From Vreelandella populi (GTDB taxonomy: Bacteria > Pseudomonadota > Gammaproteobacteria > Pseudomonadales > Halomonadaceae): a DNA stretch of 64,000 nucleotides. Of this stretch, positions 19,466-59,116 are shown in pieces (position 1 is the first letter of the stretch; each line of letters starts with the position of its first letter). Under the pieces are notes generated by a model. It was not told the DNA's origin and did not search any database. It saw nothing but the letters and a program-made list of their open reading frames with translations. The stretch spans positions 1 through 64,000 of the forward strand of contig NZ_RZHE01000002.1 in assembly GCF_003989825.1 (NCBI RefSeq), written 5' to 3'. A program made the position numbers and the translations under genes.

Positions 19466-19556
19466 GCGTTGGGTGGCAAAGCTGAGGCGGCTAGGCGCCG
19501 CCCATTCGCGGGTGCCTCATTTGCTCGTGCCTCGCAGATTCGTTACCACACGCTAC
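19466..19556 (+). repeat. Palindromic element, right half (copy A1)
   Basis: Runs from GCGTTGGGTGGC through a GGCGGC...GCCGCC hairpin and GCGGGTGCCTCATTTGCTCG to the inverted end TTACCACACGCTAC. The left arm is missing. Confidence 0.7.
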
Positions 19557-19591
19557 GAATTTATCGCCGAAGCTTGATATGGCGCATACCC

Positions 19592-19750
19592 GTAGCGTGT
19601 GGTAAGCCGGTAGGCGCACCCGCGGAAGCAGCGCGGTGAGCGCTGCCGGGATTGGGGCATACCTTTGGTGACACAGCCAGGGCGGCTTGCAGCCGCCTCC
19701 CGCGGGTGCCTTATTTGCTCGTATCCTCGCAAAACGTTACCACGCGCTAC
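19592..19750 (+). repeat. Palindromic element, full length (copy A2, 159 bp)
   Basis: Ends GTAGCGTGTGGTAA and TTACCACGCGCTAC are inverted repeats. Inside are CACCCGCGG, a GCGC...GCGC hairpin with CTGCCGGG, a GGCGGCTTGCAGCCGCC hairpin and CCCGCGGGTGCCTTATTTGC. Confidence 0.8.
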
Positions 19751-19785
19751 GGGTTTATCACCGATATTTGATGTGGTGCATACCC

Positions 19786-19846
19786 GTAGCGCGTGGTAAG
19801 CCTCTAGGCGCAACCCCGGCAGCGCGTCCAGCGCTGCCGGGGTTGA
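19786..19846 (+). repeat. Palindromic element, left half (copy A3)
   Basis: Begins with the perfect end GTAGCGCGTGGTAA and stops after a CCCCGGCAGCGC...GCGCTGCCGGGG hairpin. Confidence 0.7.
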
Positions 19847-19875
19847 TTGAAACGGTGCAAAAGCCTGAGACTAGC

Positions 19876-20475
19876 TCACAACAAATCCGCGCTGTTCTGC
19901 CGCTTCTCGTCACGCAGCCTGTCGCGGGCAATATACAGAGCGGCAATGGCACGGGCTTCGTGAAAATCGTCGCGCAGCAGCAGGGCGGGCAGGTCTTCGA
20001 TCGGGTGGGTTTCCACAATCAGCGGTTCTGGCTCATCGCCGGGGAGGCGCTTGGGGTACAGGTCAGTCGCTATCAGCACCTGCATGCGGTGGCGCATATA
20101 GTTCGGCGCCAGCGAAAGCTCAACCAGCGGCTCGATGCGGTGGGCGCCAAAGCCGCACTCTTCCATCAACTCGCGGTTAGCAGCGGTCACGATATCCTCA
20201 CCTGGATCCACCAGGCCCTTGGGTAGCGTTAACACATAATCTTCAAAGCCTGCGGCGTACTCTCGAATCAGCAATACGTGATCAGGGTCGGGCATGGCCA
20301 CAATCATTACCGCGCCGCGGTCGGCACCGGTCAGGCGCTCAAACTGGCGCTCCTCGCCGTTGGAGAAACGCAGATCCAGCGACTCCACATGAAACAGGCG
20401 GCTTTTTGCCACGCTCTCCCGGGCCAGAATCTGTGGCTTGCGCGGGTAGCTGGATGAAGTGTCTGCTGTTGACAT
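19876..20475 (-). CDS. nudE: ADP-ribose / ADP compounds hydrolase NudE
   Basis: Nudix hydrolase that cleaves ADP-ribose, Ap3A and NADH to AMP plus the other half. The 199-residue protein has the full Nudix box GLVDPGEDIVTAANRELMEE and the NudE-like context LPKGLVDPGED, AANRELMEECGFGA, LAPNYMRHRMQVLIATDLYP. GGAGG lies six bases before ATG 20475. It diverges from yrfG across 72 bases; nudE next to yrfG-hslR-hslO is also the enteric order, which supports the name. Confidence 0.92.
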   Translation of the reverse strand: MSTADTSSSYPRKPQILARESVAKSRLFHVESLDLRFSNGEERQFERLTGADRGAVMIVAMPDPDHVLLIREYAAGFEDYVLTLPKGLVDPGEDIVTAANRELMEECGFGAHRIEPLVELSLAPNYMRHRMQVLIATDLYPKRLPGDEPEPLIVETHPIEDLPALLLRDDFHEARAIAALYIARDRLRDEKRQNSADLL

Positions 20476-20547
20476 AGAGCGCCTCCATGGCTGCTAAAAA
20501 AGGGTTAAGCTACAATAGCACGCTTACTCTTTCAGACTGGAGCGGCA

Positions 20548-21225
20548 ATGATCGACTGGCGCGAAATTGATACCGTCCTGCTGGACATGGACGGCACGCT
20601 TTTGGACCTGCACTTTGATAGCCACTTCTGGCTGGAGCACCTTCCCCGGCGCTATAGAGAGCTGCATCAGCTGGATGAAGCATCGCAGGATGCATTGCGT
20701 GATCGGATCATGGGGGAGCAGGGGACGCTTAACTGGTACAGCCTTGCGTACTGGAGTCGAGAGCTTGACGTGGATGTCGTGGCGCTAAAGCGTGAAGTGC
20801 AGCACCTGATTGGTCTACGTGGCGATGCGCTGGATTTTCTGACATGGCTCAAGCAGGCGCATCCACGTATCGTATTGGCCACTAACGCCGATAGAGCCAG
20901 TCTATCGCTTAAATTACCGCTAACGGGGTTGGAAAAATACCTGGATGCCATCATCTCATCAGAAGATGTGGGGGCGGCAAAAGAGGAGCAGGCGTTCTGG
21001 TTCGCACTGCAGGACATAGAGCCCTTTGACCCGGCCCGCACCCTGTTCATTGACGATAATGTCCGCGTGCTGGAAAGCGCCCGTGAATTTGGTATTCGCC
21101 ATCTGCTCGGCATTAAACAGCCCGATAGTCAGCGCCCTGAAAAAGAGCTACAGGAATTTATCGCCTTGGATCGATTTGCCCAACTGCTGCCAGAAAACTT
21201 ACCTGGGCAGCAAGGAGAGCGTTAA
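20548..21225 (+). CDS. yrfG: GMP/IMP nucleotidase YrfG (HAD superfamily)
   Basis: HAD phosphatase dephosphorylating purine mononucleotides in the cytoplasm. The 225-residue protein shows motif I VLLDMDGTLLDLHFD (nucleophile DxD), motif II VLATNAD, and motif IV TLFIDDNVRVLESA. The family-specific block DSHFWLEHLPRRY is present. Its stop shares one base with the hslR start, so the two are coupled. Confidence 0.93.
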   Translation: MIDWREIDTVLLDMDGTLLDLHFDSHFWLEHLPRRYRELHQLDEASQDALRDRIMGEQGTLNWYSLAYWSRELDVDVVALKREVQHLIGLRGDALDFLTWLKQAHPRIVLATNADRASLSLKLPLTGLEKYLDAIISSEDVGAAKEEQAFWFALQDIEPFDPARTLFIDDNVRVLESAREFGIRHLLGIKQPDSQRPEKELQEFIALDRFAQLLPENLPGQQGER

Positions 21226-21614
21226 TGAGCGACAGCGTTCGCTTGGATAAGTGGTTATGGGCCGCACGGTTTTTCAAAACCCGGGCGCTCGCCAAAAAAG
21301 CTATTGAAGGTGGCAAGGTGCACTACGACGGTGCGCGTGTCAAAACCAGTAAAAACGTCGAGCTGGGGGCGCTGATTCGTGTGCCTCAAGGTTGGGATAT
21401 TTATGAAGTCGAAGTGATCGAGCTTTCTGACCAGCGTCGTGGTGCGCCTGAAGCACGCAAACTCTACGCAGAAACGACAGAGAGTGCCGAGCGCCGTGCC
21501 CGAGAGACCGAAGCACGCAGGCTTACCAATGAAGCCATGCAGCACCCCCTCAAGCGGCCTGATAAAAAGCAGCGCCGCGATATACAGCGCTTTCAGCGTC
21601 AGCCAGGCGAGTAG
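21225..21614 (+). CDS. hslR: Heat-shock ribosome-associated S4 protein Hsp15
   Basis: Binds free 50S subunits carrying stalled nascent chains and helps recycle them. The 129-residue basic protein opens with the S4 RNA-binding domain (VRLDKWLWAARFFKTRALAKKAIEGGKVHYDG) and ends with a long Arg/Lys-rich helix (KRPDKKQRRDIQRFQRQ). It sits between yrfG and hslO, the classic arrangement. It overlaps the yrfG stop as TAATG. Confidence 0.95.
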   Translation: MSDSVRLDKWLWAARFFKTRALAKKAIEGGKVHYDGARVKTSKNVELGALIRVPQGWDIYEVEVIELSDQRRGAPEARKLYAETTESAERRARETEARRLTNEAMQHPLKRPDKKQRRDIQRFQRQPGE

Positions 21615-21699
21615 CCGATAAACCCAACGCCTGACGGGGTGCCAATGGCCCCTGATAGGTGAATCCGCCAGGTACACTTTTCATCTTAAGGCCTTAGTT

Positions 21700-22575
21700 A
21701 TGTCTGATCAGATTCAGCGGTTCATGTTTGACCAAACCAATGTACGTGGCGAAATCGTAACGTTGGCCACAGCCTACCACGAAGTGCTCACGCGCCATGC
21801 TTACCCGCCAGCGGTCAATGAGCTGCTGGGCGAACTGCTGGCCGCCGTTGCGCTGCTGACCGATACCATCAAGCTTGACGGCACGTTAAGCATCGAAGTG
21901 CGTGGCCAAGGCGTGCTGTCGCTATTGATGGCAGAATCCAATCCTGGCGGCGAGCTACGCGCGATTGCCCGTATTGCCGAAGACAGCCACTTACCCAGCG
22001 AGCGGACGAGCTTTCGCGAATTGGTCGGAGAAGGGCAAATTGTCATCACGCTCGACCCGCGCGAAGGCAACCGCTATCAAGGGATCGTCGCACTGGACCA
22101 TGAAACGCTTAGCGGCTGTCTGGAAGCCTACTTTGGCCAATCCGAGCAGTTGCCTACCCGGTTGTGGTTAGCCGCTAACGGTGAGCGCGCCGGAGGCCTA
22201 TTGCTGCAGCGCCTGCCTGATGCCTCGCAAAATCAGGATACTGATGCCTGGGAGCGCAGCGTAGCTCTGGCCGAGACGATCAAAACCGAGGAGCTCCTAG
22301 GGTTGGAACAACGCGAAGTGCTTTACCGTCTCTACCATGAGGAAACCGTTCGGGTCTTTGAGCCCAAGGCACTACGCTTTGGCTGTACCTGTTCGCGGGA
22401 GCGGATGGCGAACGCATTGGTCACTTTAGGAGCCGATGAGCTGCGCGATATTTTGCGTGAACAGGGTGCTATTGATACACAATGTCACTTTTGCCACACG
22501 AAATATCACTACACAGCAGCCGATATTGAAGCTTTATTGGAAAACCCCGACGCACCATCTCCCGTTATTCACTAA
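21700..22575 (+). CDS. hslO: Redox-regulated chaperone Hsp33
   Basis: Holdase activated by oxidative unfolding; in the reduced state zinc is held by four cysteines. Those are seen near the C-terminus as CTC in [11 protein letters not shown] and CHFC in [13 protein letters not shown], the expected CxC...CxxC. The N-terminal domain has [20 protein letters not shown] and GRGVL-type turns. Length 291 is typical. ATG 21700 follows AAGG. The gene is 85 bases after hslR and probably the last of the yrfG-hslR-hslO unit. Confidence 0.96.
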
Positions 22576-22886
22576 ATCTGTAGTCAGGGTTGTCAGCGTG
22601 GTGAAAAGACTTAATGAGGCTAAGAGCCAGTAGCTACAACGCATCCGGCTCATCCATTAAACAATTGTTTGAAACTTTACTGCGCTGCAACACAAAATAT
22701 TGTGTCCTTGTAGTAGTTTAACTACAAGATGTTTGATTAAAGCCCCCGTTTCCCGGGGGCTTTCTTTTTGCAATAATGCGCCTGACTTCAACACACCCAG
22801 CGAATTTTTTATCGCTGGGATGACTTTTTTGGTGGCGTCAGTGACGCCCGGTAACGAGAGAATGGCCGCAAGGCCCAGGAATCGAC
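22576..22886 (+). other. hslO-pckA intergenic region with five inverted repeats
   Basis: No gene. In order: an ACACAA/TTGTGT hairpin (22690-22705), CTTGTAGT/ACTACAAG (22707-22728), the GC-rich terminator (22739-22763), CCCAGCGA/TCGCTGGG with an AT loop (22796-22819), and GGCGTCA-G-TGACGCC (22834-22848). The last two lie in the expected pckA leader. The pckA ribosome site is AGGA just before 22887. Confidence 0.65.
22739..22769 (+). terminator. Rho-independent terminator between hslO and pckA
   Basis: Perfect 10-bp stem (22739-22748 with 22754-22763), 5-base loop, then a T-rich tail TTTCTTTTT. It lies about 165 bases after hslO, so it may end hslO or a short RNA made from the hairpins just upstream. 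Confidence 0.85.
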
Positions 22887-24443
22887 ATGACCACGACTCA
22901 AGCCGCTCCCCAAGCTCACGTTAATCTCAGCAGCGCCGAACTGATCGAGCGCGCCGTGGCCGGTGGTGAAGGCCGCTTGTCGGCTGATGGTGCTCTGGTA
23001 GTCAATACCGGCGTACGCACAGGGCGTTCACCGAAAGACCGTTTTATCGTCGATGAGCCTTCCACCAGCGAAAGCATCGACTGGGGCAGTGTCAACCGTC
23101 CGTTTGAAGCCGCCAAGTTCGATGCCCTATGGGCGCGGGTGGAAGACTACCTGGGTAGCCGTGAGTATTTCGTGTCCGAGCTGCACGTGGGCAGCGATTC
23201 CACCCATTATCTACCGGTGCGCGTCAATACCGAAACTGCTTGGCAAAACCTCTTTGGCCGCACCATGTTTGTGCGTCCGACGGCTTACAACCCGGCGGCC
23301 AAGGATGAGTGGATCATCCTTAACGCGGCGAATTTTGAGTGCGACCCGAGCCGCGACGGTACCAACTCTGACGGCTGTGTCATCATCAACTTTGCCGAGA
23401 AGAAGGTGCTGATTGCCGGCATGCGCTATGCGGGCGAAATGAAAAAAGCCATGTTCTCCGTGCAGAACTTCCTGTTGCCGGCTTCTGATGTGCTGCCCAT
23501 GCACTGCTCGGCCAACGTGGGAGAAGATGGCGAAACCTGCCTGTTCTTTGGTCTTTCCGGCACCGGTAAAACCACACTGTCCGCTGACCAGGCCCGCTAC
23601 CTGATTGGCGATGACGAGCACGCCTGGGGTGACGGTATCGTCTTCAACATGGAAGGTGGCTGCTACGCCAAGTGTATCGACCTTTCCGAGAAGAACGAGC
23701 CGGTTATTTGGAACGCCATCAAGTTTGGCACCGTGCTTGAAAACGTGGTGTTGAACGACCGCCGCGAACCCGATTACGCCGACGACAGCCTGACGCAAAA
23801 CTCCCGCGCTGCGTACCCCCTTGAGCACGTTGAAAAGCGTGTGCCGGAAAACCTAGCCGGTGAACCGAACGCCATCGTTTTCTTGACCTGCGACATGTCA
23901 GGCGTACTGCCGCCGGTCTCCGTGCTTTCCAAGGAAGCCGCCGCGTACCACTTCCTGTCAGGCTACACCGCCAAAGTGGGTTCGACCGAAATGGGCTCGT
24001 CTGAAGGCCTGGCTGCGACGTTCTCTACCTGCTTTGGTGCGCCGTTCTTCCCGCGCCCGGCACGTGAATACGCCGATCTTTTGATCAAGCGTGTGGACAA
24101 GAAGGACGCCCAGGTTTACCTGGTGAACACCGGCTGGACGGGCGGCGCGTTTGGAGAAGGCGGCTCGCGCTTCTCTATCCCGACCACCCGCGCCATCATC
24201 AGCGCAATTCAGTCAGGCGTGCTGCGCGATGTGGAAACCAAGCACATTGAAGGCTTGAATTTGAAAGTGCCGGTTGCCGTACCGGGCGTTGATTCAAGCC
24301 TGCTCGACCCGCGCGACACTTGGGAAGATCGCGACGCTTATGATCGTCACCTGAAAGAGCTGGCCACCAAATTCGTGGACAACTTCAAGAAATTTGAAGG
24401 TGTTAACGAGGCGATCATCAAGGCGGGTCCGCAGCTGACCTAA
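22887..24443 (+). CDS. pckA: Phosphoenolpyruvate carboxykinase (ATP)
   Basis: Gluconeogenic enzyme turning oxaloacetate and ATP into phosphoenolpyruvate, CO2 and ADP. The 518-residue protein has the PEPCK P-loop [13 protein letters not shown], the metal/substrate segment [36 protein letters not shown], and the nucleotide segment [17 protein letters not shown] precedes ATG 22887. It follows hslO as in enterics. The leader hairpins suggest post-transcriptional or repressor control. Codon use looks biased to favoured codons, as expected for a strongly expressed gene. Confidence 0.97.
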
Positions 24444-24472
24444 TGACGTATTGCTAGGAACGCACGTTATGC

Positions 24473-24500
24473 CAGAAGGCCGCCTACGGGCGGTCTTCTG
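24473..24500 (+). terminator. Stem-loop after pckA, weak terminator candidate
   Basis: 12-bp stem with one G-T wobble (24473-24484 with 24489-24500) and loop TACG. No T-run follows, so Rho-independent termination is doubtful; it may protect the 3' end. Confidence 0.45.
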
Positions 24501-24609
24501 CTATGTGGATGTTTGAACGGCTTTTGCGTCGCGTCCAGATAAAGCGGTAATAGATCGATTGTGATACCTTGTGAGCACTTAAAAATGCTGCATGAGTTAG
24601 TTGCAATTT

Positions 24610-26949
24610 ATGGATGTCAATCAGCGAATTATTTCCCGTTTAGCCGATGAGCTAGGCGTGCGTATACAGCAAGTGGCGGCCACGGTAGAGTTACTGGATG
24701 GTGGCGCTACAGTGCCTTTTATCGCCCGTTACCGTAAAGAGATCACCGGAGCGCTGGACGATACGCAACTGCGCCAGTTGGATGAACGGCTGCGCTACCT
24801 GCGCGAGCTTGAAGAGCGCCGTGAAGCCGTGCTGCTCGCGATCGATGAGCAGGGTAAGCTGGATGCGCCGCTGAAGGCTGCTATCCAGTCAGCCGAAACC
24901 AAGCAGCGTCTGGAAGACCTGTACCTGCCGTTCAAGAAAAAGCGCCGCACCAAGGCGCAGATTGCCCGTGAAGCCGGCCTCGAGCCCCTGGCTGACGCGC
25001 TGCTTGCCAACCCTACACTTGACCCCGAAGCCGAAGCGGCCAGCTACCTGCGCCCGGCCGAGGGTGACATTCCCGCGATTGAAGACGCCAAGGCGGCGCT
25101 GGATGGTGCCAAGCAGATCCTCATGGAGCGCTTTGCCGAAGATCCGGAGCTGATCGGTCGGCTGCGCGAGCGCCTGTGGCAAGAAGGCGAGCTGAGCGCC
25201 CGCGTGCTTGAAGGCAAGCAGCAGGAGGGCGCCAAGTTCTCCGACTATTTCGAGCACGATGAAAAGCTGGCCAAGGTGCCTTCACACCGTGCCCTTGCTA
25301 TGTTCCGCGGGCGTAACGAGGGCGTGTTGGGCCTCTCCATTCGCCTGCCAGGTGAAGATGAGGCCCCCGTTCACCCGGCCCAGGTCGCCATTGCCCGCCA
25401 GGTAGGCATTAGCGATGAAGGCCGCGCCGCCGATAAGTGGTTAGGCGAGGTTGTCCGCTGGACCTGGCGGGTAAAACTGTATACGGCGCTTGAAACTGAA
25501 CTGCTGGGTCGCCTGCGTGAACAGGCGGAGCTAACGGCTATTGAGGTTTTCGCCGCCAACCTGAAAGATCTTCTACTGGCTGCACCTGCGGGGCAGAAGG
25601 TAACGCTCGCTCTCGACCCTGGGCTGCGTACCGGCTGCAAAGTGGCGGTCGTGGATGCTACCGGACAGTTTGTCGATCAGGCCACCATCTACCCCCACGC
25701 ACCGCAAAACCGCTGGGATGAGTCGCTGGCAGTGCTTGCCAAGCTTGTTAAGCAGTACGGTGTCGAGCTCATCGCGGTGGGCAACGGTACCGCGAGCCGG
25801 GAAACCGACAAACTTGCAGGCGAGCTGCTTAAAGCGCTGGCGCCTGGATACCGGTTAAGCAAGGTGATGGTATCTGAAGCGGGCGCTTCGGTGTACTCCG
25901 CCTCAGAGTATGCCTCTCGCGAGTTGCCGGATCTGGATGTCACGATTCGCGGCGCGGTATCTATCGCTCGTCGCCTGCAGGACCCGCTGGCCGAGCTGGT
26001 CAAAATTGAACCCAAATCCATTGGTGTGGGCCAGTATCAGCACGATGTCTCTCAGGTTCAGCTTTCTCGCAGTCTGGAAGCGGTTATCGAGGATTGCGTA
26101 AACGCCGTGGGCGTTGACCTCAACACCGCGTCAAGCGCGCTGCTTTCTCGGGTAGCGGGTTTGAGTACTGCCCTGGCGGACAACATCGTAGCCCAGCGCA
26201 ACGTTCACGGTGCATTTAAAAGCCGCAAGGCCCTGCTGGAAGTCAGCCGCTTGGGCCCCAAGACCTTTGAGCAGTGCGCGGGCTTCTTGCGTATTCACAA
26301 TGCCGATAACCCCTTGGATGCCAGCGCCGTCCACCCCGAGGCCTATACCCTGGTTGAGCGTATCGCCAAGCAGAGCGGGCGTGAAGTGAAAGGTCTGATT
26401 GGTGATAGCGCCGCGCTGAAAGCCTTAAAGCCAGCTGATTTCGCCGACGAGCGCTTCGGGATCCCCACGGTCAGCGACATACTCAGCGAGCTTGATAAGC
26501 CCGGCCGTGACCCGCGCCCGGAGTTCAAGGCGGCAGAGTTTCGTGAAGGCGTGGAAACCCTCAAGGATCTCAAGCTCGGGATGGTGTTGGAAGGCACGGT
26601 AACCAACGTGACCCCCTTTGGCGCTTTTGTGGATATTGGGGTGCACCAGGATGGCCTGGTGCATATTTCAGCGCTGTCCGATCGCTTTATCGATGACCCG
26701 CGCACCGTGGTGAAAGCCGGGGATATCGTGTCGGTAAAAGTCATGAGTGTAGATATTGCCCGTAAGCGGGTAGGGCTTTCCATGCGTCTGGATGACGAGC
26801 CGCAGCGAGAAGAAAGTACTCCCGCGCCGGCAGGTCAAGGGGCACAAAAGCCACCACGTAGTAAACGCGCTACCCAAAAGTCTGCTGAAACGGCGGCGCC
26901 CATGGGGGCGCTCGGTGCGGCATTGCTCAAGGCGCGCAAGAGTAAATAG
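24610..26949 (+). CDS. tex: Transcription accessory protein Tex (S1 RNA-binding)
   Basis: Conserved nucleic-acid-binding protein linked to transcription and RNA turnover. The 779-residue protein has the N-terminal helical part (RLADELGVRIQQVAATVELLDGGATVPFIARYRKE), a YqgF-like RNase H fold (VTLALDPGLRTGCKVAVVDATG), a helix-hairpin-helix segment (DLNTASSALLSRVAGLSTALADNIVAQR) and a C-terminal S1 domain (GMVLEGTVTNVTPFGAFVDIGVHQDGLVHIS). The tail is basic and low-complexity. I use ATG 24610; a TTG three codons upstream is open, and neither has a clear ribosome site. Confidence 0.95.
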   Translation: MDVNQRIISRLADELGVRIQQVAATVELLDGGATVPFIARYRKEITGALDDTQLRQLDERLRYLRELEERREAVLLAIDEQGKLDAPLKAAIQSAETKQRLEDLYLPFKKKRRTKAQIAREAGLEPLADALLANPTLDPEAEAASYLRPAEGDIPAIEDAKAALDGAKQILMERFAEDPELIGRLRERLWQEGELSARVLEGKQQEGAKFSDYFEHDEKLAKVPSHRALAMFRGRNEGVLGLSIRLPGEDEAPVHPAQVAIARQVGISDEGRAADKWLGEVVRWTWRVKLYTALETELLGRLREQAELTAIEVFAANLKDLLLAAPAGQKVTLALDPGLRTGCKVAVVDATGQFVDQATIYPHAPQNRWDESLAVLAKLVKQYGVELIAVGNGTASRETDKLAGELLKALAPGYRLSKVMVSEAGASVYSASEYASRELPDLDVTIRGAVSIARRLQDPLAELVKIEPKSIGVGQYQHDVSQVQLSRSLEAVIEDCVNAVGVDLNTASSALLSRVAGLSTALADNIVAQRNVHGAFKSRKALLEVSRLGPKTFEQCAGFLRIHNADNPLDASAVHPEAYTLVERIAKQSGREVKGLIGDSAALKALKPADFADERFGIPTVSDILSELDKPGRDPRPEFKAAEFREGVETLKDLKLGMVLEGTVTNVTPFGAFVDIGVHQDGLVHISALSDRFIDDPRTVVKAGDIVSVKVMSVDIARKRVGLSMRLDDEPQREESTPAPAGQGAQKPPRSKRATQKSAETAAPMGALGAALLKARKSK

Positions 26950-26999
26950 TTGCCCGATGCGAAGACTTAAGTGCTCGGATGGGCCGACTGTTCTCAATG

Positions 27000-27033
27000 C
27001 CTGGATATCCTGAAGACCTGGATGTCTTGAATA
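27000..27033. repeat. Short tandem repeat, two 17-bp units
   Basis: GCCTGGATATCCTGAA and GACCTGGATGTCTTGAA lie head to tail in the tex-gshA gap. Flanking sequence holds weaker traces of further units. Confidence 0.4.
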
Positions 27034-27146
27034 TTTAATGGTTGCCGCCATATCCTGTCTTCTATTTTCGAGACAGCGACGATGGCGATGCCACCGGATT
27101 TCACCAAGGCCTGCATGGCGGGCCTTACTGACAAGGAGTGTTCACC

Positions 27147-43930: not shown

Positions 43931-44103
43931 GTAGCGCGTGGTAACGTTTTGCGAGGCAACGAGCAAATAAGGCACCCGCGGGTGGCGGCTGCCAAGCCGC
44001 CCAGGCCGTGCCACCTATGACATGCACTTGTGCCGCATTACCCAACCCCGGCAGCGCTTGGCGCGCTGCTCCCGCGGGTGCGCTGGCGCTTACCACGCGC
44101 TAC
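43931..44103 (-). repeat. Palindromic element, full length (copy D1, 173 bp)
   Basis: Perfect inverted ends GTAGCGCGTGGTAA and TTACCACGCGCTAC. Orientation is opposite to copies A, E and F. The middle holds GGCACCCGCGGGTGG, a GGCGGC...GCCGCC hairpin, and AACCCCGGCAGCGC. Confidence 0.85.
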
Positions 44104-44119: not shown

Positions 44120-44205
44120 GTAGCGCGTGGTAACGTTTTGCGAGGCACGAGCAAATAAGGCACCCGCGGGTGGCGGCGTTAAGCCGCCTTGGTTGTTCCA
44201 TATAG
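44120..44205 (-). repeat. Palindromic element, half (copy D2)
   Basis: Starts GTAGCGCGTGGTAACG and runs through GCACCCGCGGGTGGCGGC to a GCCGCC hairpin, then stops. The other half is missing. Confidence 0.75.
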
Positions 44206-49614: not shown

Positions 49615-49646
49615 AAAACCCCGCAAGCAAGCTTGCGGGGTTTTTT
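49615..49646 (+). terminator. Rho-independent terminator after mdh
   Basis: Perfect 14-bp stem (49615-49628 with 49631-49644), AA loop, then a T-run. Confidence 0.92.
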
Positions 49647-49704
49647 ATTGCCAGCACCGAATGTAGCGCCATACCCAATGGGTGATTGCCGTAACGCCAT
49701 ACCC

Positions 49705-49854
49705 GTAGCGCGTGGTAAGCGCCAGCGCACCCGCGGGAGCGGCGCGCCAAGCGCTGCCGGGGTTGGGTTTAGTAGCACGGCCAAGGCGGCTTGATGCCGC
49801 CACCCGCGGGTGCCTCATTTGCTCGTATCCTCGCAAAACGTTACCACGCGCTAC
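49705..49854 (+). repeat. Palindromic element, full length (copy E1, 150 bp)
   Basis: Perfect inverted ends GTAGCGCGTGGTAA and TTACCACGCGCTAC. Interior as in A2, with GGCGGCTTGATGCCGCC and CACCCGCGGGTGCC. Confidence 0.88.
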
Positions 49855-49870
49855 GGGTGTTCAAACCCTT

Positions 49871-49975
49871 GTGCCAAGCGCTGCCGGCGTTGGGTGGCAC
49901 GGCCGGGGCGGCTTGGCGCCGCCATTCGCGGGTGCCTTATTTGCTCGTTCCTCGCAAAACGTTACCACGCGCTAC
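49871..49975 (+). repeat. Palindromic element, right half (copy E2)
   Basis: From GTGCCAAGCGCTGCCGGCG to the inverted end TTACCACGCGCTAC. The left arm is missing. Confidence 0.75.
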
Positions 49976-50008
49976 GGGTGTTCGAACCCTTGTGTCATGT
50001 GCTGACAT

Positions 50009-50070
50009 GTAGCGCGTGGTAAGCGCCAGCGCACCCGCGGGAGCAGCGCGGCGAGCGCTGCCGGGGTTGG
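50009..50070 (+). repeat. Palindromic element, left half (copy E3)
   Basis: Begins GTAGCGCGTGGTAAGCGCC and ends after the GCTGCCGGGGTTGGG block, about 45 bases before the GGDEF gene end. Confidence 0.75.
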
Positions 50071-50114
50071 GTGATGGCGTGTAAGAAGCGAGATATGGTA
50101 GCGCTGCCGGGCTT

Positions 50115-51263: not shown

Positions 51264-51315
51264 GTCGGATCAATTCGCCTCGCTAACGGTTAAAGCGAAC
51301 ATTGCTCATGGCTGT

Positions 51316-51975
51316 TCATGCGTCGCGCAAGCTCATAATCCGCCATTGGCGCTCTTCGGCTATCTGACGAAGGGTGGCGTCAGGGTCAACGGCTACCGGG
51401 TGGTCAACTTCTTCAAGCAGCGGCAGGTCGTTATGCGAATCGCTGTAGAACCAGGCGCCGTCCAGAGTGAAGTCTTTATCCTCAAGCCAGGCATGCAGAC
51501 GAGTCACCTTGCCTTCACGATAACTGGGAATGCCGGATACGCGCCCGGTATAGCGGCCGCTCTCTACTTCCGGATTGACGGCGATCAAGTAGTCAACGCC
51601 CAGGCGTTCCGCTATCGGCGCGGTGATAAAGCGATTCGTTGCGGTAATAATCAGCAGCGTATCGCCCCGGGTGCGGTGACGGGCCAGAAGGTCTTCGGCC
51701 TTAGGCAGAATATGCGGCTCAATTTTGCTGGCCATAAACTGCTGGTGCCAGGCGGCCAGCTGTTCGGGCGTGTTTTCTGCCAGCGGTTTCAGCGCCATTT
51801 CCAGAAAGGCTGCCATATCCAGCGTGCCTGCATTGTAGTCGGCCATAAAGCGCTCATTGGCTTCGCGGTAGGCAACCGGGTCCACCGCTCCCTGTTCGAG
51901 CAGGAACTCACCCCATGCGTGATCGCTGTCGGTGGATATCAGCGTATTATCCAGGTCGAAAATGGCCAGACTCAC
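51316..51975 (-). CDS. HAD-superfamily hydrolase, SerB-like subfamily IB
   Basis: Cytoplasmic phosphatase of 219 residues. Motif I is LAIFDLDNTLISTDSDHAWGEFLLEQG, motif II LLIITATNRFI, and motif IV FYSDSHNDLPLLEEVDHPVAVDPD. These match the IB group that includes phosphoserine phosphatase-like and CicA-like enzymes; the substrate is not known. GTG 51975 is the start, with AAGGGGAG four bases before it; the frame is open 22 codons further up without support. It diverges from rppH. Confidence 0.87.
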   Translation of the reverse strand: MSLAIFDLDNTLISTDSDHAWGEFLLEQGAVDPVAYREANERFMADYNAGTLDMAAFLEMALKPLAENTPEQLAAWHQQFMASKIEPHILPKAEDLLARHRTRGDTLLIITATNRFITAPIAERLGVDYLIAVNPEVESGRYTGRVSGIPSYREGKVTRLHAWLEDKDFTLDGAWFYSDSHNDLPLLEEVDHPVAVDPDATLRQIAEERQWRIMSLRDA

Positions 51976-52014
51976 GGCGCTCCCCTTATGGTCAGTCTTT
52001 GTATGTGATGTATT

Positions 52015-52042
52015 GGTATAAATCGCTAGGTATAAATGCAAA
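52015..52042. repeat. Short tandem repeat, two 14-bp units
   Basis: GGTATAAATCGCTA and GGTATAAATGCAAA lie head to tail in the gap between the HAD gene and rppH. It may be chance. Confidence 0.35.
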
Positions 52043-52198
52043 ACAAAGGGGCGGATTATCGCAGAGTCATCAGTTCTTGCCCAACCTCTTTCCTACCCGA
52101 TAAGGCAGCCATTAGTCAGTTAGCGTTATATTGTATTGATACGCTTGTCGCCCTTGTGGAAAAATGGGGACAACTGAAAATTTATTAAGGTGACGTCC

Positions 52199-52693
52199 GT
52201 GATCGACGCTGACGGCTTTCGTCCCAATGTTGGTATTATCATTACCAACAGCCAGGGGCAGCTGCTATGGGCGCGTCGTGTAGGGCAAAATGCGTGGCAA
52301 TTTCCTCAGGGAGGCATTAAAGCAAGCGAGACACCACAACAAGCCCTCTTCCGTGAGCTTTTTGAGGAGATCGGCCTGACCGCCGACGATGTCGATATTA
52401 TCGCCTGCACCCGGGGTTGGCTACGCTACCGTCTGCCACGACGCATGATTCGCACAAACTCACGGCCAGTGTGTATTGGCCAGAAGCAAAAATGGTACCT
52501 GCTGAAAATTCGCTGTCAGGAAAATCGTATCAGCATGACGGCAACGCCCAAACCTGAGTTCGATGGATGGCGGTGGGTAAGCTATTGGTATCCGCTAGGG
52601 CAAGTGGTACCGTTCAAACGAGAGGTGTATCGGCGTGCGCTAAGAGAGCTTTCTCCCCGCGTTCAGCGTCTGGCACAAAATGACGAAGGATAA
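52199..52693 (+). CDS. rppH: RNA pyrophosphohydrolase RppH
   Basis: Removes pyrophosphate from the 5' triphosphate of mRNA and so starts decay. The 164-residue protein begins [17 protein letters not shown] and has the Nudix box [20 protein letters not shown] in the context WQFPQGGIK. The start is GTG 52199, six bases after AAGGTG; a GTG three codons up overlaps that site. ptsP follows within 68 bases, as in many Gammaproteobacteria. Confidence 0.95.
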
Positions 52694-52761
52694 CGCGTGC
52701 TCCACAGCTCTGGATGAGCGGTGAAAGTCTGTCGGAAAGATCCTCAGCGAGGCAAATAACA

Positions 52762-55041
52762 GTGAAAAGTAAAACGTCCATGCTTGAGGTACTGCGTCGT
52801 GTGATTCAGGAGGTCAACGGCGCGCGCAACCTAGACGCTGCGCTTTCGACGATGGTGCGCCGCATCCGCAAAGCGATGCAAACCGACGTCTGCTCGTTCT
52901 ATCTTTATGATAAAACCCTAGAATCACTGGTGCTGATGGAAACCATCGGGTTGCGCACTCAGGCGGTCGGGCGTGTGGTGCTGCCGCTGGGTGAAGGGTT
53001 GGTGGGGATGGTCGCCAAGCGCAGTGAGCCCTTGAATCTGGAAGATGCCCGGTCGCATCCGCACTTTCGCTATTTTGAAGCCACCGGGGAGGAGCGCTAC
53101 TCCAGTTTCCTCGGTGTGCCGATTATTCACCAACGCCACATGTTGGGCGTGCTGGTGGTTCAGCAGGCGGAAAAGCGTAGCTACGACGACGAAGATGAAG
53201 CCTTCCTGGTGACCATGGCGGCCCAGTTGGCGGGCGTGTTGGCCCACGCGCTGGCAACCGGTAACCTGACTCGCCCGGCGTTGCCCGGCGGGCAGGCCAT
53301 GTTCAAGGGGGTAGCGGCATCGCCAGGCGTTGCCATGGGGGAGGCCGTGGTAATTACGCCACCCGCCGATCTCAACAGTGTGCCGGATCTGATTCCCAGC
53401 AACGAAGCCTATGAAATTGCGCGTCTGAAAGAGGCGATTGGCAAAACCCGCGATGAGATTCGTGCAGCGGGCGAGCGTCTGGCAAGCCGCATATCTTCCC
53501 AGGAACTGGCGCTTTTTGATGTCTACCAGCAAATGCTGGGGGAGGCCGCGCTCTCGGAAGAGGTTGAAAAACGTATTCGTGAAGGGCAGTGGGCGCCCGG
53601 CGCGTTGGCCGATGTAGTAAGGCGCCACGTTCAATACCTGGAGCGGGTAGATGATGACTACCTGCGCGAGCGCGCAGCCGATATCCGCGACCTTGGGCGC
53701 CGCGTGCTTGGCCATCTGCAAGAAGGTACACCCTCAACGCCGGAAACTTACCCGGACAATGCCATTCTGGTAGGCGATGAAATTAGTGTGGCCATGCTTG
53801 GCGAGGTGCCTCGGGATAAGCTCAAGGGGCTTGTGTCGGTGCGAGGGTCAAGCACCTCGCACGTTGCCATCGTCGCCCGCGCCATGGGCATACCGACCGT
53901 GTTGGGGATGATGGATTTACCCTTGCCACGCCTGAATGGCGCGCCCCTTGTGCTGGATGGCCATCGGGGGCGACTGTTTGTTCGCCCAACCGCCGACCTG
54001 ACACTGCGTTATGAAAGCCTGATCGCTGAGGAGAAGGTGCTTAGCGAACTGCTGGAACACGAGCAGGATCTTCCCAGTACTACCCAGGACGGCCATGAAA
54101 TGCCGTTGATGGTGAATACGGGACTGGCCGTTGATGCAACGGCGCTGCTGAAAAGCCGTATTGCCGGGGTAGGCCTCTATCGTACCGAAGTGCCGTTTAT
54201 GATTACCGAGCGCTTTCCGGGCGAAAAAGAGCAGATGCGCATGTACCGCGAGCAGCTTGAAGGATTCGCGCCGCTGCCGGTAGTCATGCGCACCCTGGAT
54301 ATTGGTGGCGATAAAGACCTGCCGTACTTCCCGATTGAAGAAGCCAACCCTTTTCTGGGCTGGCGCGGCATGCGGGTAACGCTTGACCACCCGGAAGTGC
54401 TGATGGTGCAGCTGCGCGCCATGTTGAAGGCCTCCCATGGGCTGAATAACCTTTACGTTCTTTTCCCGATGATTACCAATGTCGAGGAAGTCGATGAAGC
54501 GTTAAGGCTACTGGATCGCGCGATCATCGAGCTGGGTGAGGAAGGCATTACTATAGAGCGCCCCAAAGTGGGCGTGATGATCGAAGTCCCGGCGACCATT
54601 TATCAGATGGATGCGTTGGCAAAACGGGTCGACTTCTTCTCGGTCGGTAGTAACGACCTGACCCAATACCTGCTTGCAGTTGACCGTAATAATCCTCGGG
54701 TATCCAGCCTTTATGATGCGCTTCACCCGGCGTTGTTAGGAGCGCTTCAGGAGCTCGCCCAGGATGCCAAGCGCCTGAATAAACCGATCTCGCTGTGCGG
54801 AGAACTGGCGGGCGACCCGGCCGGTGCGTTACTACTGATGGCCATGGGCTTTACCGCACTTTCCATGAATGCGCCCAGCCTACCCAAGGTGCGTGCCGCC
54901 ATTCGCCGGGTAACGCTACATGATGCCAAGGCGCTGCTGGCAGAAATCATGCGCCTGGATACGCCGGCTCAGGTACACGAGCACCTGAATAAACGCCTGG
55001 ACGAGTGGCAACTTTCTCACCTGTTACCCCCGCGAGATTAA
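52762..55041 (+). CDS. ptsP: Phosphoenolpyruvate-protein phosphotransferase PtsP (nitrogen PTS EI)
   Basis: Enzyme I of the nitrogen-related PTS; passes phosphate from phosphoenolpyruvate to NPr and EIIA-Ntr. The 759-residue protein has an N-terminal GAF domain (DVCSFYLYDKTLESLVLMETIGL, then FLGVPIIHQRHMLGVLVVQQ), then EI with the phosphohistidine in RGSSTSHVAIVARAMGIPTVLG and the PEP site SVGSNDLTQYLLAVDRNN. I prefer GTG 52762, preceded by GAGG; ATG 52780 matches the enteric start and ATG 52714 is also open. The GAF domain senses glutamine or 2-oxoglutarate in relatives. Confidence 0.94.
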   Translation: MKSKTSMLEVLRRVIQEVNGARNLDAALSTMVRRIRKAMQTDVCSFYLYDKTLESLVLMETIGLRTQAVGRVVLPLGEGLVGMVAKRSEPLNLEDARSHPHFRYFEATGEERYSSFLGVPIIHQRHMLGVLVVQQAEKRSYDDEDEAFLVTMAAQLAGVLAHALATGNLTRPALPGGQAMFKGVAASPGVAMGEAVVITPPADLNSVPDLIPSNEAYEIARLKEAIGKTRDEIRAAGERLASRISSQELALFDVYQQMLGEAALSEEVEKRIREGQWAPGALADVVRRHVQYLERVDDDYLRERAADIRDLGRRVLGHLQEGTPSTPETYPDNAILVGDEISVAMLGEVPRDKLKGLVSVRGSSTSHVAIVARAMGIPTVLGMMDLPLPRLNGAPLVLDGHRGRLFVRPTADLTLRYESLIAEEKVLSELLEHEQDLPSTTQDGHEMPLMVNTGLAVDATALLKSRIAGVGLYRTEVPFMITERFPGEKEQMRMYREQLEGFAPLPVVMRTLDIGGDKDLPYFPIEEANPFLGWRGMRVTLDHPEVLMVQLRAMLKASHGLNNLYVLFPMITNVEEVDEALRLLDRAIIELGEEGITIERPKVGVMIEVPATIYQMDALAKRVDFFSVGSNDLTQYLLAVDRNNPRVSSLYDALHPALLGALQELAQDAKRLNKPISLCGELAGDPAGALLLMAMGFTALSMNAPSLPKVRAAIRRVTLHDAKALLAEIMRLDTPAQVHEHLNKRLDEWQLSHLLPPRD

Positions 55042-55059
55042 CCTTGCAACAGAAGCTCA

Positions 55060-55818
55060 TTAAATGCTCAGCGTCGTTTCACCTTCGAAACGGCCTAGCG
55101 GGCCAAAGCGCTGTTCGGTTATTTCCGCATGGCCTTGGCTATCGAGCGTAAGCCACGTTGTTGCGCGCGTGCCGTAGGTTTCGCCCATGATAAACGCAGC
55201 CGAGAGCTGACGCTCAAGCGCTAACCCCACGCCTGTGTTGGGCAGCTGTGTGTCAGGCGCTTGATGAGAATCATGCAATGCCTGGCCTGCGGCGTGGCGC
55301 CAGTTACCCATCGCGTTTTGTTGAAGAGCATCGCGTACCGCGCAGAGTTTGGGCCAGGGCGTATTCAAATCAGCGTTGGAAAGTCCGTGCACACCGGGTG
55401 CCACGTTAGTCAGTGTTACCTCATGCTGGCCGCGGTGCAGGTGCCAAAGGCGCTCTGGCGTAGCCACCAGTAAATTGAAGCCCGCGTAGCCGTAAGCCTT
55501 ATGCTCGGTAAGCTGTGCTAACCATTCATCAATATCGTTACATTGCAGCGCCTGCGCAACAAGCTCCCCACGGCTAGGTGCATCGGCGGGTGTCAGGATA
55601 GCCAAGTCGCGTACATTGGTAAGCGCGGCGACTCTTCCCCTACGCGCTGCCGCAAGCCAAGAACCGCCCGCTTCAAGGTCACGCCCACCCAACAAGGCAG
55701 GGTTATCCTCCCAGTAGTGCAAGGGGGCGGTCGGCCGGTCGTGGCGCTCATCGCGGTTACCCGCTAGACGTAGTGGCACAGCCGAACCGGGCTGCCAGGC
55801 AAATGCCATCAAGCACAT
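55060..55818 (-). CDS. NRDE (TANGO2-like) family protein
   Basis: Family defined by an N-terminal NRDE motif, here LAGNRDERHDRPTAPLHYW at about residues 19-37, after MCLMAFAW. The second cysteine of the protein is a possible N-terminal nucleophile (Ntn-like fold). Also conserved are LGGRDLEAGGSWLAA and GRVAALTNVRD. The 252-residue protein has no membrane segment. Function in bacteria is unknown; the eukaryotic relative is tied to membrane and haem handling. It is inserted, on the opposite strand, into the usual ptsP-lgt neighbourhood. Confidence 0.85.
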   Translation of the reverse strand: MCLMAFAWQPGSAVPLRLAGNRDERHDRPTAPLHYWEDNPALLGGRDLEAGGSWLAAARRGRVAALTNVRDLAILTPADAPSRGELVAQALQCNDIDEWLAQLTEHKAYGYAGFNLLVATPERLWHLHRGQHEVTLTNVAPGVHGLSNADLNTPWPKLCAVRDALQQNAMGNWRHAAGQALHDSHQAPDTQLPNTGVGLALERQLSAAFIMGETYGTRATTWLTLDSQGHAEITEQRFGPLGRFEGETTLSI

Positions 55819-55913
55819 TGTTATTCCTCAAAGTTATCTTTAAAACGGCCAACCATCTTTATAAACGCTAAGCACAGCATGACAGCTTCAGAGCATAGTC
55901 GTACACTTGTGCA

Positions 55914-55944
55914 GGTAACGTTACCGACATCACCTGACCGGTGA
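55914..55944. promoter_or_regulatory. Two adjacent palindromes before the receiver protein gene
   Basis: GGTAACGTTACC (55914-55925) is a perfect 12-bp palindrome; TCACC/GGTGA with a 5-base centre (55930-55944) follows. They lie in the gap between the NRDE gene (minus) and the receiver gene (plus), 35 bases before its start. Operator-like. Confidence 0.4.
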
Positions 55945-55978
55945 AATTGATTCAAGCCAATTGGGAAGGCGCGAACTC

Positions 55979-57157
55979 ATGCAACGCGATCGCGAAGAGC
56001 ATATCTGGCATGCCATCATTTGGCCGATTCTGTGGCCAATGTTACTTATCCAAGCAACATTAATCGTGCTATGCCTTTTAGTCGGCCTCGCCGTCTGGTG
56101 GATGTCGCCAAGCCAGGTGTCATGGAGCACCACCTTGTGGCTGTCGTTGGCGCTGCTGTTAGGTAGCTCCATGAATATGTGTGCCTTCCTGATGCTGGTT
56201 AAAACGCGTGCCCGGCAAAAAGACTCGCACTTTATGCAGGAACTTGCCGAGCTGGAACGCAACAGCGAGTCCCTGCGCTTTGCAGCAATACAACTATTAC
56301 CGGATAAAACATTTTCATCACCTGCGATAAGCCAAACGCCCGCCCGGCCACTCAAGCGTCTGGCACGGGTAAATGAAAAGCTTTCAGGCCTTGAGCACTA
56401 TATTAGGACCGCCCAACAGCTGAACCCTGCGCCAGATCACTCGAAAGAGGGGCAGGAGCAGGCGTTGTTGGATGACCTTCATCATCAACAGCAACAACTT
56501 AAACACCTGATGGCCGGACGCGACCGTGCCCGGGAAGAGTCGCGTTTGAAGACAGGCTATTTATCGCTACTGCAGCGGGAAACGGATGATTTGAACAACC
56601 ATCTGGGCCGCATCCTGGAAAGCGATGAGTGTCGACACTGCCGTCAGCAGATCGTGGATACTCGTGAGCGCCTGGCCGATGCGCGTGCACTGTTGGCCAA
56701 CCTGGTCTACCAAAGTGTGAATGATGACGCGGCGCCTACTAACATGGCGCCGAACCCGGCACTACGTGTACTGGTCGTTGACGATGGCCCAGTTAATCTT
56801 ATGTTGGCGCGTCAGATGCTGGAAGCTCAAGGGTTACATGTTGAAGGGGTCAGCAGCGGCGAGCAGGCGCTCGAACGACAGCAGTCCATTCAGTTTGATT
56901 TAGTCTTCATGGATATCTTTATGCCCACTCTGGATGGCCTGGAAACTACCCGGCGCTGGCGCGCCTTTGAACAGGCCAGTGGCAAGCACCGCAGTATCCT
57001 CATCGCCTTGACGGCCAATGCCGACAACGCCGGTATTACCGAATGCAAGGAAGCGGGAATGGATGACCTGCTCACCAAGCCGTACCAACCTGAAAAACTG
57101 CTGGGTATGATCAGCAAGTGGCTACCCAATACTGAAGGAAAGGCATCAACATCATGA
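55979..57157 (+). CDS. Membrane response-regulator protein, degenerate hybrid sensor without kinase domain
   Basis: 392 residues. Two membrane segments (about 12-42 and 52-74), a coiled-coil region (83-245), then a C-terminal receiver domain with acidic pair D268/D269, phosphoacceptor D312 (LVFMDIFMP), T345 and K367 (LTKPY). Residues 187-207 (SRLKTGYLSLLQRETDDLNN) resemble a dimerisation helix of histidine kinases, but where the phosphorylated histidine should be there is arginine (R200), and no ATP-binding domain follows. So this is probably a former BarA-like hybrid that now only receives phosphate. AAGG precedes ATG 55979. It overlaps the TauE gene by four bases. A cognate kinase is not nearby. 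Confidence 0.8.
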   Translation: MQRDREEHIWHAIIWPILWPMLLIQATLIVLCLLVGLAVWWMSPSQVSWSTTLWLSLALLLGSSMNMCAFLMLVKTRARQKDSHFMQELAELERNSESLRFAAIQLLPDKTFSSPAISQTPARPLKRLARVNEKLSGLEHYIRTAQQLNPAPDHSKEGQEQALLDDLHHQQQQLKHLMAGRDRAREESRLKTGYLSLLQRETDDLNNHLGRILESDECRHCRQQIVDTRERLADARALLANLVYQSVNDDAAPTNMAPNPALRVLVVDDGPVNLMLARQMLEAQGLHVEGVSSGEQALERQQSIQFDLVFMDIFMPTLDGLETTRRWRAFEQASGKHRSILIALTANADNAGITECKEAGMDDLLTKPYQPEKLLGMISKWLPNTEGKASTS

Positions 57158-57951
57158 GCGTACTGGTAACTCTGCTTGGCTATCTCGGGTTGGGCGCTGC
57201 CGCAGGCACCATGGCAGGGCTTTTTGGAGTCGGCGGCGGATTAATTATCGTGCCTGTGCTGGTATTTGCCTTTGGACTACAGAACGTTCCCTCTGAAATC
57301 ACCATGCACCTTGCCGTTGGTACATCACTTGCCACTATTGTGGTAACTGGTGCATCGTCCGCGTTAGGGCATTTCCGTAAAGGCAGTATCCATCGCCCCT
57401 GGTTTCTGGCCCTGTTACCGGGGCTGATGCTGGGTGCCATCGGTGGCGTGTTCATTGCAGGCAACCTTTCCGGCACCGTGCTGGGCACACTGTTTGGCAT
57501 TTTTGTTTTGCTGCTGGCAGCTAAAATGGTGTTTGGCCTTTCTCCCAGGCCGGGGGCCATGGTGCCGGGCAAATTCGCCATGCTGGTAGCCGGCGGAGTG
57601 GTGGGCGCCATTTCAGCGCTGTTTGGGATTGGCGGCGGCGCCATGACCGTGCCCTGGCTCTCCCGCTGCGGTGCCACCATGACTCAAGCCGTGGGTACGT
57701 CTGCTGCCTGTGGGTTACCTATTGCCGCTGTTGGCGCCATCACCTTCATCATCATGGGGTGGGGTAACCCGCTTCTACCGGCCTGGGCTACGGGGTTTGT
57801 CATGTGGCCCGCGTTTTTCGCTATCGTGCTTACCAGCGTTCCCTTTGCTCGCGTGGGCGTAAGGCTGGCTCACGTTTTATCTGCCCGCGTCCTCAGGCTA
57901 TGCTTTGCGCTTCTGTTGACAGTGGTAGGTTTGCGCTTCGTTTTGGCCTAA
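57154..57951 (+). CDS. TauE/SafE family sulfite/anion exporter
   Basis: Integral membrane protein of 265 residues with about eight hydrophobic segments. The inverted repeats of the family are seen in LGLGAAAGTMAGLFGVGGGLIIVPVL and AGGVVGAISALFGIGGGAMTVPWL. Substrates in the family are sulfite, sulfoacetate and related anions. It overlaps the receiver gene (ATGA), which may mean shared regulation. The specific anion is not deducible. Confidence 0.88.
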   Translation: MSVLVTLLGYLGLGAAAGTMAGLFGVGGGLIIVPVLVFAFGLQNVPSEITMHLAVGTSLATIVVTGASSALGHFRKGSIHRPWFLALLPGLMLGAIGGVFIAGNLSGTVLGTLFGIFVLLLAAKMVFGLSPRPGAMVPGKFAMLVAGGVVGAISALFGIGGGAMTVPWLSRCGATMTQAVGTSAACGLPIAAVGAITFIIMGWGNPLLPAWATGFVMWPAFFAIVLTSVPFARVGVRLAHVLSARVLRLCFALLLTVVGLRFVLA

Positions 57952-57994
57952 TCCGCAGCATCGCGTTTTCTTCTTCAGCAATTAGAGTATTTTC

Positions 57995-58783
57995 ATGATC
58001 AATTATCCGGTAATCGACCCTGTGGTGTTTTCCCTCGGGCCACTGCAAGTGCATTGGTATGGCCTTATGTATGTCATAGGGTTTGTCGCCGCCTGGTGGT
58101 TGGGTTGTAAGCGCGCCCACCAGGTAGGGCTTACCAAGGATGATATTAGCGACCTTTTATTTTACTGCGCGATAGGGGTCGTGGCGGGCGGCCGCCTGGG
58201 CTATGCACTTTTTTACGGTCTGGGGCAATGGTCCGCCGATCCGCTCTGGGTATTCAAAGTGTGGGACGGCGGTATGAGCTTCCACGGTGGCTTGCTGGGC
58301 GTCTTGCTGGCCGCTTGGTGGTTTGCACGCCGCAAGCAGCTGGCCTTCTTCACCCTTACCGATTTTATTGCCCCGCTAGTACCTATTGGCCTGGGCGCCG
58401 GGCGCATTGGTAACTTCATCAATCACGAACTGCCGGGGCGTGTTACCTCACTACCCTGGGGCATGCCTTTTCCCGGCATGGGGCCGGAACCTCGCCATCC
58501 TTCCGCACTTTATGAAGCTGTGCTTGAAGGTTTGGTGCTGTTTGTCATTCTTTGGTGGGTATCTTCCAAGCCGCGCGCCCGTGGCTTCATCTCCGGCCTT
58601 TTCCTGCTCTTCTACGGCATCTTCCGCTTCATGGTCGAATTTGTACGTATGCCGGATGCACATATCGGCTTTATCGCATTTGGCTGGGTCACCATGGGTA
58701 TGTTGCTCACGCTCCCCATGATCGCGCTAGGCCTACTGCTCATGGCATGGTCACGCTCCCAGCCGGTAGATGCTAAACAGTAA
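57995..58783 (+). CDS. lgt: Prolipoprotein diacylglyceryl transferase
   Basis: Transfers diacylglycerol from phosphatidylglycerol to the lipobox cysteine, the first step of lipoprotein maturation. The 262-residue protein has seven or so membrane segments and the Lgt signature [18 protein letters not shown], plus [13 protein letters not shown] and [16 protein letters not shown]. It is a usual neighbour of thyA, but here a repeat element of about 150 bp lies between. PgpA, at 9587, helps supply the lipid substrate. Confidence 0.95.
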
Positions 58784-59116
58784 GATTTTTAATACCCAAA
58801 CCCCGATTTAACGCGAGGTCATGTAGCGCGTGGTAAGCGCCAGCGCACCCGCGGGAGCAGCGCGGCGAGCGCTGCCGGGGGTTGGGTGGCACAGCCAAGG
58901 CGGCTCGACGCCGCCATCCGCGGGTGCCGTATTCGTTCGTCCCACACAAATGCGTTACCACGCGCTACGGGGTGAGGGTGCATCAACTACCCGCAGGTAT
59001 TCGTTACCACATACCATAGAGTATGAAGCTCGTAAGCCATTGCCCCCTTACGCTAGACCCTCGCTGCATGGAGGCCTAGAATACAGCCCTATATCGCCTG
59101 AAATTTTGGAAACCTT
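58784..59116. other. lgt-thyA gap with one palindromic repeat
   Basis: Holds element F (58823-58968). A weaker trace TTACCACATACCATAG near 59005 may be an eroded end. The thyA start region follows; its ribosome site (GGA) is weak. Confidence 0.75.
58823..58968 (+). repeat. Palindromic element, full length (copy F, 146 bp)
   Basis: Perfect inverted ends GTAGCGCGTGGTAA and TTACCACGCGCTAC. Interior has CACCCGCGGGAGCAGCGCGG, CTGCCGGGGGTTGGG, and GCCGCCATCCGCGGGTGCC. Confidence 0.88.

Follow-up and report, generated by a model that had tools for sequence, protein, structure and literature searches.

What are the palindromic repeats that recur between genes in a 64,000-nucleotide stretch of the Vreelandella populi genome (RefSeq assembly GCF_003989825.1, contig NZ_RZHE01000002.1, positions 1 to 64,000; hereafter the window), which enzyme could have copied them, and why do they crowd together? 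Here we identify these elements as, very probably, REPINs (inverted pairs of repetitive extragenic palindromic, or REP, sequences, also known as bacterial interspersed mosaic elements, BIMEs) of a new Halomonas/Vreelandella REP family, with a REP-associated tyrosine transposase (RAYT) as the likely cognate enzyme. The element family is real and well defined, and it is a clear case of regional confinement. REPs tagged with GTAG, REPINs and RAYTs are all well-described kinds (PMC3733652, PMC3116915, PMC8049555, PMC8266576, PMC2817692).

A RAYT gene accompanies the repeats

The RAYT gene lies about 50 kb beyond the window, on the minus strand at C8:114437-114943 of the same genome (G000), ~120 bp from the last 14-bp end of an element array (C8:113700-114313). 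Its 169-aa product matches the NCBIfam equivalog NF047646.1 (REP_Tyr_transpos) at 188.7 bits against a cut-off of 80 (E 5e-56), and its only PDB match is the E. coli TnpA_REP (4er8; phmmer E 2.9e-46), with the HUH motif and the tyrosine aligned. H60, H62 and Y120 are invariant across 27 orthologues. Of the 351 orthologue pairs, 112 gave a usable dN/dS, with a median of 0.08; the others were saturated or could not be computed. A Pfam scan at E <= 1e-5 returned no family for the protein, and a PF01797 search of the genome at E <= 0.001 did not report it. An IS200-like Y1 transposase gene that does match PF01797, split over two frames at C4:254839-255184, was rejected as the cognate enzyme.

The 82 genus genomes compared represent one species each. 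Close orthologues (at least 65% identity) occur in 32 of these genomes, one per genome; three of the orthologues are split into two pieces and two carry a stop. With a single copy in each of these genomes and the same neighbourhood in the four that were compared, the gene does not appear to be mobile itself, and we regard it as encoding a host-kept (domesticated) single-strand transposase that is likely the cognate enzyme. No plasmid record searched matched element E1 of the window (Table 1), and the 27 plasmid records with a RAYT match were all below 60% identity. The sequence-only reading of the window had proposed that an element carrying no gene would depend on an enzyme encoded elsewhere, and had named a RAYT as one such kind; this is what was found outside the window.

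The repeats and the RAYT keep company across the genus. Of the 30 RAYT loci fetched, 26 have element ends, of the main type (GTAGCGCGTGGTAA) or of two variants, at a distance of 1.5 kb or less, with variant ends beside the gene in G023, G004 and G070. By comparison, ends were found at none of 25 loci of other Y1-transposase matches, a control set of 29 from which four that proved to be the same RAYT (three with ends) had been removed. Furthermore, at least three exact ends occur in 27 of the 32 genomes with a RAYT versus 8 of the 50 without (Fisher P 6e-10, uncorrected for kinship), that is, in 35 of the 82 genus genomes, and the median number of exact ends per genome is 20 with a RAYT and 0 without. 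A putative cognate RAYT flanked by repeats is thus present in the same genome, as judged by association.

The genus also contains a second RAYT-like clade, about 30-35% identical to the first (loci L200, L201, L206 and L208, in G065, G034, G054 and G073). These loci are surrounded by direct repeats of another GTAG/GTGG-tagged palindrome (e.g., GTAGGAGCCCAATTCATTGGGCGATCAG), which in two of the four follow one another in tandem every 137-142 bp, and a repeat similar to that palindrome lies between lgt and thyA in G004.

The element pairs two unlike arms

Anatomy was compared over 11 stretches, three of the V. populi genome and eight from five relatives, of which nine hold 79 whole copies of 138-192 bp. 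In all 79, one L arm (GTAGCGCGTGGTAAG...) is joined to one R arm (GTAGCGCGTGGTAAC...) in inverted orientation; 71 copies were typed by the base that follows the end, and the eight with another base there by eye. The L arm is short and the R arm longer, and within each a stem CGCG-T-GG / CC-CGCG with one bulged base is possible. Each arm begins with GTAG save for rare single changes, e.g., GCAG, a regularity that is partly by construction because the arms were found by that end. Lone arms are common, 63 of the 221 ends in these stretches lying outside whole copies (221 minus 158). The largest array in the V. populi genome has up to five units (C8:117289-118237).

As single strands, E1 and F fold more stably than any of 200 shuffles each (z -6.4 and -5.3), and trimmed arms, including the variants GTAGCGCGGCGTAA and GTAGCGCGGTGTAA, are predicted to leave GTAG unpaired ahead of a one-bulge stem with an inner hairpin in six of six cases. 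Across an alignment of 25 chosen elements, the proposed structure is paired in 96% of cells versus 24-50% when slid by 1-3 columns, and its covariation score exceeds those of all 500 shuffles. The inner hairpin of the R arm shows double changes in four of its five pairs; the outer 14-bp stem says little, since it hardly varies.

Some copies and sister elements depart from this plan. A 16-nt insert (AGCGGCGGCCCGGCGC or a relative), possibly a nested mini-palindrome, recurs within CACCCGC|GGG in some arms of more than one genome (G000 C12:85674-85864 and C8:87210-87401, and several copies in L173 and L176). Sister elements in the V. populi genome carry GTAGCGCGGCGTAA ends instead of GTAGCGCGTGGTAA (C7:77735-77914; C9:147098 and 147284). 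Much shorter elements, about 85-105 bp by the covariance model, make up arrays in G042 (C1:2617190-2617675 and 2696650-2699412), where they flank the RAYT gene on both sides.

Copies are crowded in one chromosomal segment

The 3.8-Mb V. populi genome contains 40 exact ends, of which 33 fall in C8:19.7-118.2 kb, no more than 95 kb from the RAYT gene; the remaining seven sit at two loci, five in C12:85.4-86.1 kb and two in C4:66.4-67.3 kb, and the reversed end pattern does not occur in this genome. Allowing one mismatch adds seven places, including one new locus (C7:301.6 kb). The covariance model recovers at least 24 distinct whole or partial places (20 in C8, 3 in C12 and one with variant ends in C7); decayed copies elsewhere may be missed, as 150 of 2781 candidates were scored. 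From four whole copies in 64 kb the sequence-only reading had expected a large genomic family. Rather than being spread through the genome, most exact ends lie in this one 98-kb stretch, and extrapolation from the window, itself part of the dense zone, fails.

In V. neptunia, the metagenome-assembled genome (MAG) Go_Leine and H. olivaria the corresponding segment, whose orthologous genes keep their order, is likewise crowded. In complete genomes it lies roughly 0.95-1.6 Mb from the first or last base of the record, near which the origin is assumed to be. To the right of the window it holds a polysaccharide locus (C8:64-113 kb; L161-L163) with genes for a sugar transferase, an O-antigen ligase-type protein, Rml enzymes, glycosyltransferases, PGI, a nucleotidyltransferase and sulphate activation; the inner genes vary among related genomes and the borders are common to them.

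Proximity to the RAYT was assessed in six genomes with the gene on one main contig (three genome sizes being rounded). Within 110 kb of the gene, a radius picked after the positions were known, lie 7/14, 7/12, 6/11, 5/9, 2/3 and 1/4 sites, against 0.2-0.7 expected; the excess is strong in four genomes, weak in one and not significant in one (P 0.21). Two further RAYT-bearing genomes in one or two contigs were left out: G028, with one exact end, and G007, with two ends, one of them 3 kb from its split RAYT. In G050, which has no close RAYT, 12 of 16 ends nevertheless fall next to thyA, at 950-1043 kb. As readings of the elements, integron attC sites and replication-terminus sites were considered but not adopted.

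Copies sit at gene ends and at shared sites

Among 152 gaps between genes in stretches of V. populi, V. neptunia and the Go_Leine MAG (113 co-directional, 19 convergent, 20 divergent), 30 contain elements: 21 co-directional, nine convergent (3.75 expected) and none divergent (3.9 expected). Gene calls were mechanical, five ends inside called open reading frames were left out and orthologous sites depend on one another, all of which makes the P values (0.003 and 0.009) too favourable. Co-directional and convergent placement is the pattern of REPs generally (PMC3733652). Sites are also shared between genomes: of the 30 loci fetched for each gene, 19 at thyA and 14 at ilvD contain ends.

Elements in the window

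The sequence-only reading had described nine copies, four whole and five partial, at four intergenic sites only, and the end matches bear this out: 13 ends resolve into four whole elements (146-173 bp) and five partial ones (Table 1). The ends that it took as fixed are exact in 11 matches of GTAGCGCGTGGTAA; two more, the end of A1 and the left end of A2, carry one mismatch (GTAGCGTGTGGTAA), so that not all are identical. Matches are confined to 19.5-19.8, 43.9-44.1, 49.7-50.0 and 58.8-59.0 kb, and with up to three mismatches they number 19, versus 6.3 on average and 12 at most in 100 shuffles. The inner sequence pair and block said to be shared are indeed over-represented, CACCCGCGGG with 25 matches versus 7.6 expected and GCTGCCGGGGTTGGG with 14 versus 3.5. 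Linkers that had seemed alike within one site are identical at 27 of 35 bases (site A) and 19 of 21 (site E), and the view of the elements as BIME-like arrays of intergenic palindromes is supported as well.

Table 1. Elements in the window, with their ends and their matches to the covariance model
Element	Description	Position	Strand	Ends and blocks	Covariance-model match
A1	partial, R arm and 14-bp end (one mismatch)	19466..19556	+	end 19543-19556	19430-19556, E 9.1e-5
A2	whole, L then R arm, 159 bp	19592..19750	+	ends 19592 (one mismatch), 19737	E 7.4e-24
A3	lone L arm and hairpin block	19786..19847	+	end 19786-19799; GCTGCCGGGGTT block to 19847	
D1	whole, 173 bp, convergent genes either side	43931..44103	-	ends 43931, 44090	E 9.9e-26
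D2	lone R arm	44120..44188	+	end 44120-44133; CACCCGCGGG at 44161	E 7.6e-9
E1	whole, 150 bp, convergent genes either side	49705..49854	+	ends 49705, 49841	E 1.7e-26 (best match)
E2	element without left end	49877..49975	+	end 49962-49975; block at 49880	49856-49966, E 1.7e-5
E3	lone L arm and hairpin block	50009..50071	+	end 50009-50022; block 50057-50071	E 4.5e-4
F	whole, 146 bp, between lgt and thyA	58823..58968	+	ends 58823, 58955	E 4.1e-26

Those flanking genes that were scanned are unremarkable. Beside site A they encode a GFO/IDH/MocA oxidoreductase and a NUDIX protein; beside site D, Rsd/AlgQ and an AcrB-type pump; beside site E, a lactate/malate dehydrogenase and a GGDEF protein; and beside site F, Lgt and thymidylate synthase. 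An Rfam scan of the window found no family at its gathering score.

Discussion

That the RAYT moves these elements is the best explanation we can offer, and it is association that suggests it. What we observe are the sequences, a RAYT with conserved catalytic residues, its physical association and co-occurrence with the ends, the crowding, the arrays and the asymmetry of the arms. RAYTs cut REPs in vitro, and their copying of REPs in cells is inferred from genomes. We infer binding, cleavage and mobilisation here, as well as the route of array growth, along the following lines. When DNA becomes single-stranded, the arms would fold; the RAYT would recognise GTAG and the bulged hairpin, nick and rejoin adjacent DNA, and seed copies, for the most part in the vicinity of its own gene. 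Arrays would grow from the seeded copies by slippage or recombination, which would also leave lone arms behind, and vertical inheritance would account for the same intergenic sites being occupied across species.

Several results weigh against this reading. No end lies within 1.5 kb at four of the 30 RAYT loci (G033, G005, G028 and G014). Exact ends number 3-18 in eight genomes that have no close RAYT, and just 0-2 in 5 of the 32 RAYT-bearing genomes. End type and RAYT tree show no clear co-evolution (25/500 and 162/500 shuffles as low), and comparison of the lgt-thyA and ilvD loci revealed no clean empty site and no movement. The structural evidence is likewise uneven: most trimmed arms do not exceed shuffles in stability (z +0.7 to -2.4), with more flank the GTAG plus bulged hairpin is the best fold in one of three arms, doubly changed pairs in the 25-element alignment do not rise above shuffles (110/500 as high), and 12 of its 25 sequences break one pair of the L hairpin.

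With inverted ends that are fixed and a length of 138-192 bp, the elements also resemble a miniature inverted-repeat transposable element (MITE) derived from an ordinary DDE transposon. The 14-bp ends would then be terminal inverted repeats, cut double-stranded by an insertion-sequence transposase whose own element has the same ends. We consider this very improbable: the ends start with GTAG and adjoin a RAYT at 26 of 30 loci, lone arms are common (63 of 221 ends lie outside whole copies), the halves are two different, conserved arms, and no donor transposon turned up, though no search aimed at one was made. Placement raises another explanation, in which the elements now serve mainly as devices in RNA or DNA at the ends of genes (setting transcript 3' ends, protecting mRNA, or offering sites to gyrase or nucleoid proteins), and what keeps them in the same places is selection for such a role, not the RAYT. 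The lack of divergent sites, the surplus of convergent ones, the sites shared at thyA and ilvD, the covarying R-arm hairpin and the plain hairpin that several relatives have at lgt-thyA instead of the element all point that way. REPs commonly sit at gene ends, however, perhaps only through being tolerated there, and copies per site vary between species from a single element to more than 10 ends; we think such a role unlikely to be the explanation, and as it concerns persistence it is compatible with spread by the RAYT.

The crowding could also stem from the region rather than the enzyme, if a polysaccharide locus that strains exchange by recombination gains or keeps arrays, or uses them as crossover points. 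The inner genes of this locus differ between genomes and its shared borders carry arrays; in addition, crowding persists in G050 without a close RAYT. On the other hand, mdh, rsd and lgt-thyA, which are not among the variable genes, have arrays too, some lie at ilvD, 0.2 Mb from thyA in several genomes, and crowding near rayt genes has been reported elsewhere (PMC2817692). We hold this as a tentative possibility, short of probable. Likewise possible, though less likely than not, is that the RAYT acts at short range, with new copies favouring a range of roughly 100-200 kb around its gene. As thyA and the RAYT are no more than about 75 kb apart in the genomes compared by position, a short-range enzyme and a copy-keeping region are not separable here.

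Set beside known systems, the proposed REPINs share with the E. coli REP/BIME elements and TnpA_REP (a group 2 REPtron) a related enzyme, a pairing of unlike REP types and arrays, and with E. coli REPs a 5' GTAG and, as predicted for the trimmed arms, a stem interrupted by a bulge (PMC8266576). The arms here are longer, however, with an inner hairpin, in a whole element of 138-192 bp, and the family comprises a few tens of copies in one segment, unlike the genome-wide spread in E. coli. REPINs of Pseudomonas fluorescens SBW25 likewise have an inverted REP pair as their unit, tandem arrays that include flanking sequence, and a cluster beside each RAYT (PMC3116915); yet SBW25 doublets measure 71 or 110 bp, occur in hundreds of copies and are distributed as expected of random spread across extragenic space (PMC3116915), whereas the present unit is longer, asymmetric and regional. 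GTAG REP families 1-24 have the same tag, intergenic location and mostly co-directional or convergent placement (PMC3733652). The text of that paper holds no match to Halomonas (PMC3733652), and it is by text that the present family is set apart from them.

Genome-wide spread is typical of REPs but is not required, and exceptions exist (PMC2817692, PMC3733652). More than a third of Thauera REPs lie near a rayt gene (PMC2817692), and GTAG-23 of T. roseum is clustered in large blocks (PMC3733652). Both are precedents for local crowding but belong to other REP families, and the crowding described here is found at one syntenic segment in several species. The sequence-only reading had seen prior cataloguing in the genus as grounds for giving up its proposal; among the best-ranked matches in the open-access literature searched with Halomonas/Vreelandella, no paper concerns the element family by title or abstract, and within that literature the REPIN/RAYT family is new. 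Two Halomonas papers contain a single match to 'rayt' (PMC10122347, PMC7163023).

Our analysis gives a name to a repeat with at least three exact ends in 35 of 82 genus genomes. If the RAYT does act at short range, the repeats would be a chromosomal neighbourhood around a fast-changing polysaccharide locus, not a genome-wide family, and the arrays may promote exchange of that locus. With copies that in several species stay by the enzyme gene and relatives that lack a RAYT, all in one culturable genus, Halomonas/Vreelandella provides a natural test of local RAYT action, and the RAYT-less relatives a test of how long REPs persist after loss of the enzyme.

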